A DNA stretch of 39,243 nt from a virus. Both the position numbers and the translations under genes were made by a program. The stretch's first letter is position 1. Each line of letters opens with the position of its first letter. The stretch spans positions 1-39,243 of IMG/VR virus record IMGVR_UViG_3300046028_003776, one strand, 5' to 3'. The notes under the pieces are model-generated. The model had not been told where the DNA came from, searched no databases, and saw nothing but the letters and a program-made list of their open reading frames with translations. This document shows positions 8,689-19,813 of this stretch, one piece after another.

Positions 8689-8969
8689 GCCAAGTCTCCT
8701 CGAAACCGTTCAATCGGCCACGACGAGCGGATGCGTTGGCACGCCTCCTCAATCTCGGCAGGCGTCGGGAAGTACTGCTCGCCTCTTCGCAACCCGCCGG
8801 TAGCCGTCTTGCGTGTTAGCCCCAGCTTGTGCGCGTAGTTGCGGATGCACGTCACAGAGACCTTGTAGTGCACCGCCATCTGCATCAGCGTCACTGCGTC
8901 GTCCGCCCACAGCCGGGCAAACTCCTGCTCATCGGCAGGGGCGAACGACGCTACACGTCCGTACCTCAT
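8685..8969 (-). CDS. helix-turn-helix DNA-binding protein
   Basis: A 94-residue protein. Residues 12-52 form a clear HTH (EQEFARLWADD, TLMQMAVHYKVSVTCIRNYAHKLGL). The C-terminal motif (PTPAEIEEACQRIRSSW) matches the one in the protein at 4897-5274. It probably regulates transcription or recognises a phage site. The ATG at 8969 overlaps the dnaN stop (ATGA). Confidence 0.75.
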   Translation of the reverse strand: MRYGRVASFAPADEQEFARLWADDAVTLMQMAVHYKVSVTCIRNYAHKLGLTRKTATGGLRRGEQYFPTPAEIEEACQRIRSSWPIERFRGDLA

Positions 8970-10069
8970 GCGTCCTCCGCAAGCGGCATGATGACGCCAC
9001 GGTACTCGCCGCACGACAGCGTAACGGCACCGGCAGGCCCGGTCGCATGAATCGAGACGTTCGGCTCCTCGTCGGCCGGCAGCCCTGTCAAGTAATCTCT
9101 CACGAAAACTGGGTCGAGCTTGACCTTGCAGACACTCCCGGCCTGCACCACCGAGCACTTCGCCTTCGACTCGCCGTACTCGCTCGAGCGGGCCGTAAGC
9201 GTGAGCGTCTCGCCGAAGTCGTACGTGACGCCCTTGCTCTGCTCGCTGGCCACCACGGCCGCAGCCCTGGTCGCCGAAAGCAGCTCTTCGCGCTCCACGA
9301 CGTGCGGCTCAGTGCTGGCCTCGGGGAACACGTCACGCCACCGGGGGAAGCGGCCGTCCACGATGCGAGCCGTGAGCACGCCGCCGTCGAACGTGAACAC
9401 CACGTCCGACTTGGTCGCCTCGATCTGCACCGAGCCCTCGCTGCGTTCACTGAGCGTGGCAGCGATGCGAGCCGCAGCGGCCGGCACAAGCGTCGTCGAG
9501 TCGTCCACCGCCTGGTCCGTCTCCGTCTGCACCGCCGACAGCCGCCGACCGTCCGTACCCACGAACGTCGGATCTCCACCCGTCACGTCGATGAGCACCG
9601 CACCCAGGGCGTAGCGGCTGGACTCGCTGTCCGTGGCGTACGACACGGCACGCACGGCACGCACGAACTGATCCGCCGGCAGGCGGCACACGGGCGTGGC
9701 GTCCACCGGATCCCACGTCGGGTACTCGGCCACGTCCTCGGTCGGCAAGTCCCACTTTCCCCTGCCGCACTTGATCGTGACGGTGCTGCCCTTCGGGGTG
9801 AGCGTCACGTCGTCGTCGTGCCGGCAGGCCCGCAGGATGGCCGTCAGCCTGTCGGCCGGCAGCAGCATCGGCTCGCACTGCTCGCCGATCTCACGGTCGA
9901 TGCGGATCTCAAGGTCCGTGCCCGTGATCAGGCCGTCACCGATGCGGACGTTCCGCAGGATGGGCTTCGGGCCCCGCGAGCTCACAGCCCTGGTCACGTC
10001 ACTGAGTGCCGCCAGCAGCGTGCCGGCCGCAATCGTCAAACCGGCTCTCTCCTTAGTTGCCGTCGCCAT
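8966..10069 (-). CDS. dnaN: DNA polymerase III beta subunit (sliding clamp)
   Basis: A 367-residue protein of normal length for bacterial clamps (about 365-380). It shows three-domain clamp features: an N-terminal domain with GTDLEIRID, a central YALGAVLID with FVGTDGRRLS, and the typical C-terminal end EYRGVIMPL. The clamp encircles DNA and tethers the replicase. No phage DNA polymerase is visible, so the clamp probably redirects the host polymerase III or repair enzymes. The ATG at 10069 lies inside the end of a 41-residue membrane protein gene, with an AAAGGA ribosome site. It is coupled to the HTH gene downstream. Confidence 0.9.
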   Translation of the reverse strand: MATATKERAGLTIAAGTLLAALSDVTRAVSSRGPKPILRNVRIGDGLITGTDLEIRIDREIGEQCEPMLLPADRLTAILRACRHDDDVTLTPKGSTVTIKCGRGKWDLPTEDVAEYPTWDPVDATPVCRLPADQFVRAVRAVSYATDSESSRYALGAVLIDVTGGDPTFVGTDGRRLSAVQTETDQAVDDSTTLVPAAAARIAATLSERSEGSVQIEATKSDVVFTFDGGVLTARIVDGRFPRWRDVFPEASTEPHVVEREELLSATRAAAVVASEQSKGVTYDFGETLTLTARSSEYGESKAKCSVVQAGSVCKVKLDPVFVRDYLTGLPADEEPNVSIHATGPAGAVTLSCGEYRGVIMPLAEDA

Positions 10070-10178: not shown

Positions 10179-10435
10179 AGTGCGGCCCCCGCATCGGTGT
10201 CGTCGTCCTCGAGCAGCGGCCACTTCGCCTGGCTGGCCGCCTCAGCGTGCTCGAAGAACACGGCCTGCTTCACCAGCCGAGTCTGCAGCTGCATGATCCG
10301 GTCGGCCGACTCAAGCAGCACGCTGGCCATGAAGTTCAATCGAGCCGTGCCGGCCTTCTCAGTCACCATCGCAGCGGCATTGGCAGACGCCGTGCCGTAC
10401 TCCTTGAGCATCGCAACGAGCTCGTGGTTTCTCAT
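10175..10435 (-). CDS. hypothetical helical protein
   Basis: An 86-residue, largely alpha-helical protein with an acidic tail (EDDDTDAG). No family is recognised. I chose the ATG at 10435 for its ATGA overlap with the LexA-like gene. It lies between a DNA-binding regulator and the clamp, so a replication-related role is possible. Confidence 0.65.
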   Translation of the reverse strand: MRNHELVAMLKEYGTASANAAAMVTEKAGTARLNFMASVLLESADRIMQLQTRLVKQAVFFEHAEAASQAKWPLLEDDDTDAGAAL

Positions 10436-10653
10436 GACACCACCTCGATGTTGCGGGGCTTGCCCTTCACACGGCGGATGAAGCCCTTTCGCTCCAGGGC
10501 GTCGAGATGCACCGTGGCGGCGTGCGGAGACTTCGCACCGATGGCCGAGGCGATCTGCCTGCACGTCGGCGAGTACAGGGCCATGTTGGCCCGAATGAAA
10601 TCCAGCACCTCCTGCTGGCGAGCGGTAAGCCGCTCCTTGGCTGTCTGCGTCAT
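10432..10653 (-). CDS. LexA-type winged-helix DNA-binding protein without peptidase domain
   Basis: A 73-residue protein that matches the N-terminal DNA-binding domain of LexA: LTARQQEVLDFI, then an HTH (PTCRQIASAIG, SPHAATVHLDALERKGFI) and a wing ending KGKPRNIEVV. The autoproteolytic domain is absent, so it cannot be cleaved like LexA. It may bind a LexA-like operator as a decoy, co-regulator or antirepressor. The palindromes at 17852, 18354 and 18699 are candidate targets, but this is not shown. Coupled by ATGA on both sides. Confidence 0.8.
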   Translation of the reverse strand: MTQTAKERLTARQQEVLDFIRANMALYSPTCRQIASAIGAKSPHAATVHLDALERKGFIRRVKGKPRNIEVVS

Positions 10654-11129
10654 GCTGCTCCTCCAATGGCGTTTCCGTTGTCCATCCCAAGGCGGCGAAG
10701 CAGGTACGACACCAGCCGGAACGCAGTGGACATCTCGATCTTCAGGCTTGCGGCCTTATCCGCGATCAGATCGACAGTGCTCTGGAACTCCGCAGGAGTT
10801 GTCATTTCCACCACGGCCTTGAGCTCTTCACGCATCGCAGCGTCTTCCGACTTGTCGATCCTCACGACCTGACGAGGCTCAGATTGTTGAAGCCGCTTCT
10901 TCTCGGAGAACGTCTTGAGCCTGTGAAGGTGCCGATACTCATCACGCACCCACTTCAACTGCGGGTACATGCTTTCGTTGTTTCGCTTCACGTTCTTGAT
11001 GGCGTCATAGAGCACGTCCTGATCCAGGCGGTGCAGGTCGTCGTGCCAAAGACGACGCTCCTCGTCCGTCCAGACACACTGAGGCCACAGCTGGTTGATG
11101 GCCGCCCGGTTCTGATCCCACGTCCTCAT
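10650..11129 (-). CDS. putative helicase loader (lambda P / SPP1 gp39-like)
   Basis: A 159-residue helical protein. The N-terminal half (LWPQCVWTDEERRLWHDDL, VLYDAIKNV, then a Pro before KWVRDEYRH) fits the loose pattern of small phage helicase loaders. It directly follows the initiator-like gene with an ATGA overlap, the order seen for lambda O-P. It would deliver the host replicative helicase to the origin. The functional call depends more on gene order than on a firm family match. Confidence 0.55.
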   Translation of the reverse strand: MRTWDQNRAAINQLWPQCVWTDEERRLWHDDLHRLDQDVLYDAIKNVKRNNESMYPQLKWVRDEYRHLHRLKTFSEKKRLQQSEPRQVVRIDKSEDAAMREELKAVVEMTTPAEFQSTVDLIADKAASLKIEMSTAFRLVSYLLRRLGMDNGNAIGGAA

Positions 11130-11917
11130 AGGTTCCCTCCAACTGGTTCGCGTCGCTTACGTGCATCATGCTTTGCGTTGTCAAACTCCCCGGCCAGGAT
11201 GCGGTCGAGGTATTCAAAGAACCGAGTTACCGCCAGCGGCTTCTCAAAAAACTGGCACGACGGCAGCCGGTGCATTGCTTGGTGTGCCCTGTCCAGCCAT
11301 CCAGGCGTCGCTGCTAGGTCCACCCAAGACGCTGGAGGCACAAGCGGAGTCCACGGCACTGCATTGCCCGTGACGTTCCAGCCGGCAACAAACCGCTGCC
11401 ATTCGTCCGCTGCCCAGCCCTTTTGGCGAAACTCGTCTCTTTCCGGCGGTGTGTGTGTTCTGCATTCGTCTTTTGGAGAAGAAGATAGGGATGGAGATGG
11501 GGATGGGGATGGAGGCGATACTTTTGCGATACCGTTTGCGATCGCCTTGCGATCCTTTTGCGATCCGTTTGCGACAGTTTTGCGATCGCCCCACCGCTTC
11601 CTGTTACCCTCTTGCCCTGCTTCCGACCGTGCCTCTTTCAGGTCTTCGGCACGAGCACGGTGCTCCTCCATTCGGGCATTCCGACGCAGGCCGTCGTCAC
11701 AGACAGGAAACTTCGACGACAGCAGCTGCCACACACGGCCAACGCCTGGCGACACAAGCTCAAGACGCTCGAGATCAGACGGCAGACCGCCGGAATCCCA
11801 CTGGATCACCAGTAGGCGGATGTAATGGCCGACCTCCTCGGCAGTCCACATGGCCGTGGATGCGTAGAAGTCACGGCCAAAGAACGGGATGTAATGGTCA
11901 ACCTGCGTCCTGGCCAT
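11126..11917 (-). CDS. replication initiator-like protein, DUF1376/YdaU type, carrying the iterons
   Basis: This 263-residue protein begins with a DUF1376-like domain (DHYIPFFGRDFYASTAMW, then GHYIRLLVIQWDSGGLP), common beside phage replication genes. The middle holds two copies of an 11-residue repeat (DRKTVANGSQK, DRKAIANGIAK) and a Ser-Pro linker, both encoded by DNA repeats. The C-terminal domain of about 110 residues starts near RDEFRQKGW. Origin DNA inside the initiator gene and a loader gene immediately downstream is the lambda O/P layout. I chose the ATG at 11917, which has a GAGGGGAG ribosome site and overlaps the upstream gene by 20 bases; an ATG at 11941 is possible. Confidence 0.7.
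   Translation of the reverse strand: MARTQVDHYIPFFGRDFYASTAMWTAEEVGHYIRLLVIQWDSGGLPSDLERLELVSPGVGRVWQLLSSKFPVCDDGLRRNARMEEHRARAEDLKEARSEAGQEGNRKRWGDRKTVANGSQKDRKAIANGIAKVSPPSPSPSPSLSSSPKDECRTHTPPERDEFRQKGWAADEWQRFVAGWNVTGNAVPWTPLVPPASWVDLAATPGWLDRAHQAMHRLPSCQFFEKPLAVTRFFEYLDRILAGEFDNAKHDARKRREPVGGNL
11475..11514 (+). repeat. purine-rich tract with four ATGGRG hexamers
   Basis: A G/A-rich tract lies directly beside the iterons. Hexamers ATGGAG, ATGGGG, ATGGGG and ATGGAG fill 11491-11514, encoding a Ser-Pro linker on the other strand. The G runs could form a quadruplex, and the strand asymmetry could ease melting or form an H-DNA structure. Any replication role is inference. Confidence 0.55.
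11515..11590 (-). repeat. iteron array, seven 11-bp phased repeats, probable replication origin
   Basis: On the plus strand the core TTTTGCGAT recurs with GCGA at 11526, 11538, 11549, 11560, 11571 and 11582, and a degenerate GCGAT at 11515. Steps are 11, 12, 11, 11, 11 and 11 bases, close to one helical turn, so all copies face the same side of the DNA. The unit on the coding strand is roughly GATCGCAAAAC. Three units equal 33 bases, which gives the 11-residue repeat in the protein. Such phased direct repeats inside an initiator gene are typical of phage origins (lambda ori in O). Confidence 0.75.
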
Positions 11918-13236: not shown

Positions 13237-13544
13237 CACACCGCCCTCCACACGCTCGCCATCCGCCCGCTCGTCGTCCGCCTGGTGCCGGCCTGCTTGA
13301 TGAGCCCGCGCCGCAGCAGCTCGATCCGTCGTGGCCGTGCCGTGCTGGGGTTCATGCCCAACGCCCTGGCGATCTCCTCGTCGGTGCATCCGTCGCCACG
13401 TTCGGCGATGTACGCCAGCACCGCCTTGTGCAGCCGGTTGAGCGTGGTGCCGTCGAGCGAGTCAGCCGCTGCGGCCGAGGTGGTCGAGCCGTTCACGCTC
13501 GGAGCTCGAGCGGCGAACAGCGGGCCAAAGTCGATGGTGCTCAT
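13236..13544 (-). CDS. winged-helix DNA-binding protein
   Basis: A 102-residue protein with a disordered Ser/Ala N-terminus and a winged helix from about residue 37: LHKAVLAYIAERGDGCTDEEIARALG, recognition region NPSTARPRRIELLRRGLIKQAG, and a wing with TSGRMASVWRAV. This type of short regulator is common in phage early operons. It is coupled by ATGA to the methyltransferase upstream and TGATG to the CoiA-like gene downstream. Targets unknown. Confidence 0.75.
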   Translation of the reverse strand: MSTIDFGPLFAARAPSVNGSTTSAAAADSLDGTTLNRLHKAVLAYIAERGDGCTDEEIARALGMNPSTARPRRIELLRRGLIKQAGTRRTTSGRMASVWRAV

Positions 13545-14440
13545 GCCACGGCCTCCGCATCGAACAGGGTGCGGCTATCCGCCTCGTGCTTCTTTTGAGC
13601 CCCGGCCAGGTTCTTCAACGCCTGGGCGTGGTACTCCGGCTTGAGCTCGCAGCCGTAGAAGCGGCGGCCACGCTGAAGCGACACGTAGCCCTCGCTGCCG
13701 ATGCCGGTGAACGGCGAGAAGACGATCTCGCCTGGGTTGCTGTACAGCCTGACGAGGCGGTCAATCACGCCCAGCTGCAGCGGGCAGATGTGCTTAGTGT
13801 CGTCTTCGCTCTTGGCAGCCGCCGTATTGAGCGTGTCCGTCTCACGCAGCTCGTGCCACGTCCACGCACCTTCGGCCCAGTCGATCCATTCCTCCCGTGT
13901 GATTTCTTTCGGTGCGTCAATCGGCACGGCGTTGTCACCGGCCTGGATGAACTTGATGAGGTAGTCGCCCATGGCACCGCAAGTGATGCTGCGGTCCCGC
14001 TCCAGCGTCACAAACAGCAGCTTGTGGGAGTGCGTCCGAATCGCTTGGGCCTGTGGGTTCTTCGTGTAGAGCCAGTCGTACTGGTACGTCAGACCAGCCC
14101 TCTCGCCGAGACGGATGTTGAGGCCGCGAAAGTCAAACGTGCCTTTCTCGCCATTGCGGGCCAGGCCGGGGATCTGCATGACGTGCACGACAGCGATGCG
14201 TCCTGGCTTCAGCACGCGGGCCAGAGCCCGGTAGAAGTACCGCAGATGAACCTTGGCCTCGCCACGCAGGTCGTTTGAGTTGCCGATGTCTTCGGGCTTG
14301 CTTGTGTAGGCGAACAAGCTCGGGAACGGCGGTGAGAACACGGCAAAGTCAACGGACTGCGGCGGCATCTCTTCCATCATGTGGGTGATGCAATCGCCGT
14401 GGTGAACGTGGTACTTCTGGTTGTCAGCTAGCAGATTCAC
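13541..14440 (-). CDS. DNA adenine/cytosine-N4 methyltransferase, beta class
   Basis: A 299-residue amino-methyltransferase. The catalytic motif SPPF (residues 36-39) comes first and the SAM-binding FSPFTGIGSEG lies near the C-terminus, the order of beta-class enzymes. SPPF fits N4-cytosine or N6-adenine modification. The GTG at 14440 keeps the conserved HHGDC segment and overlaps the helicase gene by 17 bases. It could shield phage DNA from host restriction or mark origins. Recognition sequence unknown; no partner restriction enzyme is visible. Confidence 0.88.
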   Translation of the reverse strand: MNLLADNQKYHVHHGDCITHMMEEMPPQSVDFAVFSPPFPSLFAYTSKPEDIGNSNDLRGEAKVHLRYFYRALARVLKPGRIAVVHVMQIPGLARNGEKGTFDFRGLNIRLGERAGLTYQYDWLYTKNPQAQAIRTHSHKLLFVTLERDRSITCGAMGDYLIKFIQAGDNAVPIDAPKEITREEWIDWAEGAWTWHELRETDTLNTAAAKSEDDTKHICPLQLGVIDRLVRLYSNPGEIVFSPFTGIGSEGYVSLQRGRRFYGCELKPEYHAQALKNLAGAQKKHEADSRTLFDAEAVA

Positions 14441-15875
14441 GGAACATGGCCTCCTGCTCTCGGGTATCGGCCTCGACGCGACGTGCTTTCCGTAGCACGT
14501 TCTCAACCATCGGGCGTTCAACGTCAGACACCGGGATATGCACCATGAGCGGCTTGGTGCTTCCGATGCGGTTCGATCGCTTCACAGCCTGGTAATACTC
14601 CTCGTAGGAGTCCTGTAGGCCGCTAAATACCTGACGTGTGCAGACTTGAAGATTGAGGCCAAAGCCCAGAATCTTCGGCTTGGTGATGAGCACGCGAACG
14701 CGGCCAGCCTTAAAGTCATCGACGATCCGCTGCCGCTCCTCGAGCGGCGTGTTGCCGTCGATGCTCGCCGCCTCCGGCAGAACGGACTCGATTGCCCGCT
14801 GCTCGTCGTTGTAGCGGCACCAGATGATGGTCGATTCGTTCGGCCACTCACGCACCATGTCGGCGATGTACTGCGGCTTGGTGCTGCTCTCGCACTTGGC
14901 CATCCGTGAGAGCTTCGACCTGGTGGTGATGCCGCCGAGCTCGGTCACGAACAGCTGGCCAGTAGTGGCCCTGACCTGTCGCTCCTGCTCGTCGGACAGC
15001 CGCACGTCTTCGATGCAGACGTGGATGGGAGGGATGCTATGGACGTTGTCCTTCCAGCCGTAGGTGCTCGGGTCCGTGAGGAAGATGCACCAGTGCGAAA
15101 GAGCCCGGTAGAAGGGCCGCAGGGCGTGCGGCTTCAGTTCCCAACGCTCCATGGTCTGGCCACGGTTAATGAAGAACCGAGCCAGAAAGGCGTTCACGTT
15201 GGGAAACGCATCCAGAAACACGGCGTGATTGGCGTACTCAATGCGGTCGTTCGGGGCTGGCGTGCCGGTCAGTGCCAGCTTCCACGGGATGCCAGCCCCC
15301 ATCCGCAGACACACTTGCCCCCACTTCCCGTAGTGGCTCTTAAGCATCGACGACTCATCGAGGATCAGACCGCCCAGGTCGCCGCTCGGCGTGTCATCAC
15401 GCAGTGCGTCGTAGTTGGCGATGCCGAGCCGGCCGCCGGGCGTGTTCAGCCACTTCGGCAATGCCTTTGCTGACACCTGCTCAATGGGCAGCGAGTCGCC
15501 GTAGAACTTGGCGGCCTCCTCCATCGTCTGCTTCACCACCATCAGCGGCGAGACGATCAGCACCGGCTTGTCCTGCACGGCCCGGACGTGCCTTGCAAAC
15601 TCGAGCAGCATGAGAGTCTTACCCAGCCCGCAGTCAGCGAAGATGGCAAACTTCCGCTTCCGCACCGCCATGCGGACGATGTCCCTCTGGTAATCGAACA
15701 GCCCGTGCCGTGGCAGATAGTCGCTGTCTTCGTGCGGCTCGCCATCAACGCCAAGAGTTGCGGCGTACTCGTCAGGCACCACGGCCATGCGGCCATGAAT
15801 CTCATACCGCGGCAATGCCTTGATTTTCAGGAACGTCCGGTATGCGTCGATGCTGTCGTCGAGGTAAATCTTCAT
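14424..15875 (-). CDS. SNF2-family DEAD/DEAH helicase-like ATPase
   Basis: A 483-residue superfamily 2 ATPase: Q-motif-like LFDYQRDIV (59-67), Walker A ADCGLGKT (80-87), Walker B-like LILDESS (170-176), TGTP (203-206), and C-terminal helicase motifs (GFGLNLQ, YYQAVKRSNRIG). The SNF2-like pattern suggests a DNA translocase that may aid replication or act with the methyltransferase it overlaps. The ATG at 15875 has AGGA at the right distance; a GTG lies one codon upstream. The unusual DESS in place of DEAH is shared by several phage SNF2-like proteins. Confidence 0.88.
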   Translation of the reverse strand: MKIYLDDSIDAYRTFLKIKALPRYEIHGRMAVVPDEYAATLGVDGEPHEDSDYLPRHGLFDYQRDIVRMAVRKRKFAIFADCGLGKTLMLLEFARHVRAVQDKPVLIVSPLMVVKQTMEEAAKFYGDSLPIEQVSAKALPKWLNTPGGRLGIANYDALRDDTPSGDLGGLILDESSMLKSHYGKWGQVCLRMGAGIPWKLALTGTPAPNDRIEYANHAVFLDAFPNVNAFLARFFINRGQTMERWELKPHALRPFYRALSHWCIFLTDPSTYGWKDNVHSIPPIHVCIEDVRLSDEQERQVRATTGQLFVTELGGITTRSKLSRMAKCESSTKPQYIADMVREWPNESTIIWCRYNDEQRAIESVLPEAASIDGNTPLEERQRIVDDFKAGRVRVLITKPKILGFGLNLQVCTRQVFSGLQDSYEEYYQAVKRSNRIGSTKPLMVHIPVSDVERPMVENVLRKARRVEADTREQEAMFRESAS

Positions 15876-16024
15876 CACGAGTCCTTTCGTGTATTGGCTC
15901 CGTGACGTGGAGCGGACGACGCCGGCCTTGGGTATGGAGTACGAACCAATCCGACGCTGCGGCGATTACGAAGGGATTCACCGCAACCCTGCTCGCCGGC
16001 GCTGCATGACGGCCGGTACGCCAC
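15875..16024 (-). CDS. doubtful 49-residue open frame in a 160-base gap
   Basis: A GTG-started frame fills the gap between the genes at 16038 and 15875 and ends in an overlap (TCGTGATG) with the helicase start. It has no good ribosome site, only a GGGGA about 20 bases upstream, and no domain. It may be noise; otherwise the gap is a leader with no recognised promoter. Confidence 0.2.
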   Translation of the reverse strand: MAYRPSCSAGEQGCGESLRNRRSVGLVRTPYPRPASSAPRHGANTRKDS

Positions 16025-18722: not shown

Positions 18723-18895
18723 ACTGTCCAGCCGCCCGGCCAGCCCAAACCGCCGCCACGGCACGATCCGCAGAACCGGGACCGGCCGCGACGGTAGAGT
18801 GAACTGCCGAGCAGAGTTCTAGTGGAGGCGAGTACACATGAACGCTTGTACAGCGGTGTACACTGGCATGGATGCCAACAAAAGGGAGAGGCACC
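18723..18895. promoter_or_regulatory. integrase upstream region with TGTACA repeats
   Basis: This divergent region holds GTACAC at 18832-18837, TGTACA at 18847-18852 and GTGTACAC at 18856-18863, an 8-bp palindrome, just upstream of the integrase. A TAGAGT at 18795-18800 preceded by CGG resembles half of the P3 operator and -10, but no good -35 is present. Integrase arm sites, an operator or attP could lie here; none can be proven by eye. Confidence 0.4.
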
Positions 18896-19813
18896 ATGAC
18901 GATGCGAGACCTGCTGGAGCGGTACGCACTGCTGCGTTCGCTCAACACTAAGACGATCAAGCTCTACGAGATGCTGCTAGACCGCCTGGATGCGTTTCTG
19001 GGGCGGCATGCGACCACGAGCGACTTGGACGACCTAGTCGTCAGCCGCTATCTCAAATGGCGTGCAGACACGCCCGGATGGAAAGGCCGCAAGCCGTCGG
19101 CCGCAAGCGTCCGCAAGGATCGGGTTATGCTCCAGGCCATCTGGACGTACGCCGCTCGCAAGAGGATCGTGGCCGAGTTCCCCGAGTTGCCGAAGGTCAA
19201 GGTGCCGAAGCGTCTGCCGACAGGCAGGGCGTACACGGCTGACGACGTGGCCACGCTCATCAGGCGAGCCAAACACCGGATCGGAAAGACAGGCGGGCTG
19301 CCGTCGGCCTGGTGGTGGCCGACGCTTATCTACGCTGCCTACTGCACCGGCGAGCGTTTCGAGGCACTGACGAGCCTGCGGTGGGCTCAAGTAGACCTAG
19401 CGGGGAAGCGGGTGGTGTTTCTTGGGGCCACCAGAAAAGGGCAGACACGGGACATAGAACGGCAGATCACGCCAGACTTGGCAGACATGCTTCGGCTGCA
19501 CCAAGGGCCGCCAGACGCACTGGTGTGGCCGTGGGACCGCCGCAGCCGTTCGCAGTGGGCATCGCTCAAGGTCTTGTGTCGCACGGCTGGCGTGCAATAC
19601 AGGGGCTTCCACGGCCTCCGCAGGACGGCCGCCAGCTACGCAGCCCTTGCCGGCGGGACGGCCGCCGCCACGCAGCTGCTTGACCACAGCGATCCCAAAC
19701 TTCAGGAGCGGTACGTGGATCCGCTGATCTGCCCAACGGACAGCGACTCCACCAGGGCCCTGCCGCCGCTCGATCTCACCGAGCCCCCAGGCGGGCCCGG
19801 CAAGCCAAGGTAG
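18896..19813 (+). CDS. int: tyrosine recombinase integrase
   Basis: A 305-residue site-specific recombinase with an N-terminal core-binding helical domain and a C-terminal catalytic domain. Visible catalytic residues are R154 (CTGER), K181 (TRKGQ), H239 and R242 (HGLRRT), H264 (LLDHSD) and nucleophile Y273 (ERYVDP). It would insert the phage genome into the host chromosome, so the phage is temperate. The ATG at 18896 has GGGAGAGG upstream; an in-frame ATG at 18872 lacks one. No tRNA-like attP is seen. It leads a short plus-strand operon. Confidence 0.93.
   Translation: MTMRDLLERYALLRSLNTKTIKLYEMLLDRLDAFLGRHATTSDLDDLVVSRYLKWRADTPGWKGRKPSAASVRKDRVMLQAIWTYAARKRIVAEFPELPKVKVPKRLPTGRAYTADDVATLIRRAKHRIGKTGGLPSAWWWPTLIYAAYCTGERFEALTSLRWAQVDLAGKRVVFLGATRKGQTRDIERQITPDLADMLRLHQGPPDALVWPWDRRSRSQWASLKVLCRTAGVQYRGFHGLRRTAASYAALAGGTAAATQLLDHSDPKLQERYVDPLICPTDSDSTRALPPLDLTEPPGGPGKPR

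Follow-up and report, generated by a model that had tools for sequence, protein, structure and literature searches.

Phased 11-bp repeats inside a DUF1376-type phage gene suggest a replication origin embedded in its putative initiator

The DNA analysed here is a virus record of 39,243 nucleotides (IMG/VR record IMGVR_UViG_3300046028_003776), which we refer to in its full length as the window. On its minus strand lies a DUF1376-type gene whose protein linker is encoded by a regular array of short direct repeats, with an unstable, C/T-rich tract beside it. The features needed to follow the argument are these (positions are those of the window):

11126 to 11917, minus strand: DUF1376-type gene, proposed replication initiator with its own origin; ATG at 11917, 263 aa
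11663 to 11896, minus strand: DUF1376 domain, predicted order H-H-H-strand-strand, pLDDT about 90-97
11591 to 11620, minus strand: motif AGQEGNRKRW, closing the long helix that follows the DUF1376 domain, conserved as protein
11515 to 11590, minus strand: seven phased iterons in the protein linker, coding-strand steps 11, 11, 11, 11, 12 and 11 bp
11468 to 11514, minus strand: C/T-rich tract of 6-bp period, (CCATCC)n, encoding (SP)n, nearly G-free and, read along the coding strand, adjoining the array on its 3' side
11458 to 11497, no strand: candidate unwinding element of low stability, ranking sixth among the least stable non-overlapping 40-bp segments in the 39-kb record
10650 to 11129, minus strand: overlapping downstream gene, 159 aa, predicted to be all-helical

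The gene matched PF07120 in a six-frame search of the window (E 4.9e-8), and although its score of 26.7 bits lies below the Pfam cut-off of 30.1, its membership of the DUF1376 family is very likely. A match to phrog_3992 ('primosomal protein', E 2.5e-12) and fold matches in BFVD to DUF1376 models at 1e-7, as well as to Lin1244-like and 'Replication protein' models, agree with the first-pass annotation, which had placed the array inside a DUF1376-type gene. There are 27 viral relatives of the gene. The predicted order of the DUF1376 domain is compatible with a winged helix; the domain gave no match to a solved structure, and a PDB fold search with the flexible full-length model returned no winged-helix match. 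Homology and context point to the protein as a putative initiator, and our literature search found no papers tying DUF1376 or Lin1244 to origins. The host was sought via prophage relatives, of which one genome scan gave none and a second gave distant ones only.

The downstream gene had been described as loader-like, a label that found no support in the searches: its product gave no significant match in Pfam, PHROGs, PDB sequences or PDB folds. Two lambda P-DnaB chains appeared as noise only (E 6-7), and loader homology was rejected on these searches; a helicase-loader role of the gene is possible. Several other genes on the minus strand of the window were noted. A full-length homologue of the DNA polymerase III beta-clamp (DnaN; phrog_947, E 1e-55) is encoded at 8966-10069, in the phage replication region, and a 73-aa protein at 10432-10653 consists of a LexA-type DNA-binding domain alone, without the protease part. 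Adjacent, overlapping genes for an N6/N4 DNA methyltransferase and an SNF2-type helicase lie at 13541-15878. On the plus strand, 18872-19813 encodes a Phage integrase family protein, so the phage is probably temperate.

Seven GCGA cores start on the plus strand at 11515, 11526, 11538, 11549, 11560, 11571 and 11582, in steps of 11, 12, 11, 11, 11 and 11 bp, exactly as the first-pass annotation had given them. TRF independently reported periods of 11, 22 and 33 at 11515-11590, and a separate repeat search of the window also gave 11-bp repeat families. Because the DUF1376-type gene lies on the minus strand, the iteron unit reads (G)ATCGCAAANN on the coding strand. Exact copies of TTGCGATC are confined to the array, and the rest of the window holds scattered one-mismatch copies only. 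When chains of any tetramer at 11/12-bp steps were counted, the maximum was four in 100 first-order Markov genomes and again four in 1000 codon-order shuffles of the DUF1376-type gene, and seven was never reached; seven copies at such steps are far beyond chance. A change in GC skew, also looked for at the array, did not occur there.

The array encodes part of a low-complexity linker, in which two 11-residue repeats (DRKTVANGSQK and DRKAIANGIAK) stand in frame. Each spans 33 bp, equal to three iteron units, which is how the first-pass annotation had accounted for them. The dependence could also run the other way: a repetitive protein linker, or neutral slippage, could have produced the DNA repeats as a by-product, in DNA without a role. 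A period of 11, however, is not a multiple of three, and the units pass through all three reading frames. We further pooled the linker DNA autocorrelation over 43 non-redundant DUF1376 genes, most of them IMG/VR sequences, and found peaks at lags 11/12, 22/23 and 34/35; the profile was flat at lags 10, 13 and 14, and a control region was without signal. The linker autocorrelation exceeded both codon-order and synonymous-codon shuffles, with lags 11, 22, 23 and 34 beating the synonymous shuffles, which again speaks against a by-product. Also at odds with it, the Arthrobacter phage PrincessTrina carries ATCGCAA units outside, 3' of its initiator-like gene 51.

A more direct measure came from a codon alignment of 12 relatives with the same units, in which we counted different codons at positions where two sequences share an amino acid. 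Such synonymous differences amounted to 9% for the array and 11% for the tract. The domain and the C-terminal part each gave 38%, and the gene outside the array about 38–40%, so that synonymous sites are four times more conserved in the array than in the rest of the gene; no other segment of that size was as low. In a separate cluster of 17 Lin1244_N proteins, whose genes carry GTTCAAC arrays, the corresponding values were 7% for the array versus 39% for the domain. These comparisons show that the array is selected as DNA. The period that is no multiple of three, the synonymous shuffles and the synonymous constraint together rule out a protein-repeat or slippage source, and we consider DNA without a role an extremely improbable explanation of the repeats.

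The expectation of conserved 11-bp steps in relatives that keep the protein also held, as the array is present and phased in every close relative with a complete linker. Two relatives (L012 and L014) have one additional unit, inserted as 12 bp, and in two others (L021 and L022) CAAGCAAANNN replaces ATCGCAA with the 11/12-bp spacing kept. The iterons of the window contain GATC, a possible methylation target, and the swapped unit in L021 and L022 is without GATC.

Beside the repeats lies an unstable element. The segment 11458-11497 falls within the least stable 0.05% of all 40-bp windows of the record. Across 95 distinct loci, the 110-bp segment 3' of the array has a median stability percentile of 6.8 within its contig, and the 5' side lies at the 50th (3' versus 5', p 1.3e-13, n=95); the window's own 3'-side segment is at 1.7% (least stable end), although low linker stability could partly reflect amino-acid composition. 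A 6-bp-periodic tract was significant in 40/58 genes, two of the 58 being non-DUF1376 controls. In 34 of the 40 genes with a significant tract, its coding strand is rich in C and poor in G, and in 18 of 24 genes the tract is located on the 3' side of the chain.

This polarity bears on a further explanation. Phased 11-bp repeats also serve, as is generally known, as partition and repressor sites, and a protein that binds within its own gene could thereby regulate itself; on that view the DUF1376 protein, or another phage repressor, would bind the array as a regulatory operator or as a centromere-like site. A polar low-stability segment and a constrained 6-bp tract are, however, features that one expects at an origin and not at an operator. 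Of the genes near the array that were examined, none was noted as ParM- or ParA-like. Gene order in relatives likewise follows the expectation for an origin, with a helicase, loader or primase-type gene coming next in 13/20 relatives (DnaB_C in eight, an IstB/DnaC-type AAA match in four, a primase zinc ribbon in one). In named phages a cII-type gene precedes the DUF1376 gene, or a DnaC/DnaB gene follows it. The C-terminal domain of YdaU is common to lambdoid O proteins, and that of Acetobacter phage phiAX1 to mycobacteriophage RepA-like initiators. We judge an operator or centromere-like site to be unlikely.

The arrangement in the window recurs in many phages. In a chain test of 57 DUF1376 genes, 38 had significant chains at 11/12-bp steps, versus 1 to 6/57 for other steps, and about a third showed no significant phased chain. 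Since eight of the 38 chain-positive genes have 12-bp steps only, at least five of these being the 6-bp tract, the 30/57 genes with a true 11-bp step are the safer count. Named phages with such arrays include Bordetella phage IFTN2 (five copies of GTTCAAC at 11 bp), Sinorhizobium phage phiLM21 (four copies of GTTCAAC) and Acetobacter phage phiAX1 (six copies of GTGCAAA at 11/12 bp).

We also searched viral contigs for DNA patterns of three copies at a fixed step, blind to the protein. ATCGCAA at 11 bp was found in 55 viral contigs, in 40 of which it lies in a DUF1376 ORF, always on the coding strand (40/40). GTTCAAC at 11 bp occurs in at least 120; among the 120 loci listed, 116 fall within ORFs that are 100 aa or longer, without exception on the coding strand (116/116), and 84 are DUF1376, with many of the remainder Lin1244_N. 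The same unit at control spacings gave six loci at 10 bp, three each at 13 and 14 bp, and nine at 8 bp. Tandem repeats of it at 9 bp (51 contigs) and 15 bp (102) were set aside as controls, because both spacings are multiples of three and in-frame protein repeats are their probable source. CAAGCAA at 11 bp was present in at least 120; the proteins concerned mostly have N-terminal domains of other, helix-turn-helix-like kinds. On this evidence the phased array is widespread in DUF1376 genes and found in other initiator-like families, and no one-off variant of lambda; the unit differs between phages (ATCGCAA, CAAGCAA, GTTCAAC) and the spacing appears constant. A variant spacing was seen in another family, where DUF6291-type proteins at three loci (L143, L145 and L147; PF19808 matched for L145) have ATCGCAA repeats at 10-bp steps and share a GNLKRW/GNLKKW motif.

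Which part of the protein would read these units is suggested by a short motif that sits just before the array. Within the window it lies in AGQEGNRKRW, and its conservation is at the level of protein, as synonymous differences come to 44% here compared with 9% for the array. When loci were picked by iteron sequence alone, GxxxRW (nearly always GNxxRW) was found at 44/54 ATCGCAA loci versus 2/120 of the GTTCAAC loci listed, and GxxSAxxR at 95/120 of the GTTCAAC loci listed versus 0/54 ATCGCAA loci (Fisher p about 1e-28 and 1e-25, respectively, uncorrected for relatedness). Genes picked regardless of iteron gave the same picture, as two or more TTCAA were present in 10 of 13 with the SA motif versus none of 23 with the RW motif (p 1e-6). 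The short motif at the end of the domain, GNxxRW or GxxSAxxR, thus appears to predict the iteron present.

These associations raise the alternative that the array is an origin whose iterons are read by the short helix motif, or by another protein, and not by the winged-type DUF1376 domain. The same cores do occur with differing N-terminal domains (DUF1376, Lin1244_N, DUF6291 and replisome-organizer-like), and in L021 and L022 unit and motif change together while the domain stays similar. On the other side, CAAGCAA arrays are found in proteins without the motif, so the motif-iteron rule is not universal and there would be no universal reader; moreover, a motif and an array inherited as one cassette could give the same association. 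We regard a reader other than the DUF1376 domain as a reasonable possibility, though less likely than not. A broader proposal, which we offer tentatively as a plausible one, is that a wide class of phage initiators (DUF1376, Lin1244_N, DUF6291 and others) has 11/12-bp iteron origins embedded in coding sequence, and that in part of this class a short, portable motif closing the N-terminal domain sets the iteron that is read, GNxxRW for ATCGCAA and GxxSAxxR for GTTCAAC, in a simple recognition code that would move between unrelated domains together with the array. The association of motif and iteron would make the evolution of new origin specificities testable where a gene carries its own binding sites.

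Repeated sites of the initiator type thus seem to lie inside the coding sequence of a putative initiator. As the same layout is kept across many phages while the site sequences change, a replication start inside the initiator gene is the most likely meaning of the locus. We infer that the array and the adjoining tract form, with high probability, a phage replication origin within the initiator coding sequence, at which the DUF1376 protein would bind, open the tract and recruit a helicase or its loader. Copies of the DUF1376 protein would occupy the iterons along a single face of the helix, each turn presenting one core; their assembly would strain and open the adjacent tract of low stability and strand asymmetry, 3' of the array; and a helicase or helicase loader would be brought in by the C-terminal domain, so that replication would start there. 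If correct, this proposal would assign a role to a large family of domains of unknown function and make origins predictable to base resolution, from sequence alone, in very many phages and prophages. It would also explain low-complexity linkers such as SPSPSP, NQNQNQ and NDRSTTVQ as protein read-outs of the origin.

The first-pass annotation had likened the locus to the lambda O/P plan. One half of that comparison is upheld, since a phased and constrained array lies inside an initiator-type gene; the other half is not, the proposed loader gene being without a match. In lambda O and ori-lambda too, the initiator gene itself contains the iterons, placed between the N-terminal and the C-terminal part, and an unstable region adjoins them; in several phages DUF1376 genes occupy the O position after cII. 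The four lambda iterons are inverted-repeat sites of 18-19 bp, spaced by 20-24 bp and bound by O dimers (PMC5043065); their annotated starts are 39034, 39054, 39078 and 39101, and in the same chain test lambda gave no 11/12 chain. In contrast, the window has short, direct, asymmetric cores every 11/12 bp, and so has neither the 18-19-bp iterons nor the 20-24-bp steps of the lambda O family proper; the unstable region is A+T-rich in lambda and a C/T-rich 6-bp repeat in the window. Gene 38 of SPP1 contains direct repeats and an unwinding element (oriL) and is followed by helicase-loading functions (PMC6316719). Compared by its published description, gp38/oriL (with gp39 as loader and gp40 as helicase) resembles the window in having repeats and a candidate unwinding element in an initiator-type gene, and differs in that no loader homology was found for the next gene of the window.

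In their binding sites, iteron plasmids and Vibrio cholerae ori2 offer another parallel. Iteron plasmid initiators and RctB bind as monomers to short direct repeats in helical phase beside an unwinding region (PMC5043065, PMC5395669), and TGATCA, an inverted repeat, is part of each RctB 12-mer (PMC5395669). The 11/12-bp steps resemble the RctB 12-mer array of ori2. Plasmid and ori2 iterons, however, are not known to lie inside the initiator gene, and their initiators are two-winged-helix Rep proteins, not DUF1376. PrincessTrina (KU160660, L032; 2970-3070) shares with the window ATCGCAA units in 11-bp steps (84% identity over 66 bp), a 6-bp tract (AACCAG) after the array and the sequence YGNHTRWH in the protein of the upstream gene 51, which has no DUF1376 and no Pfam match. 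Its array differs in position, lying 3' of gene 51, between genes 51 and 52, and not inside; the array contains the annotated start of gene 52, a sign that this gene may have been miscalled. By analogy, the plan at this locus would work like ori-lambda in O and SPP1 oriL in gene 38, but with a DUF1376 domain, 11/12-bp direct iterons and a 6-bp tract.
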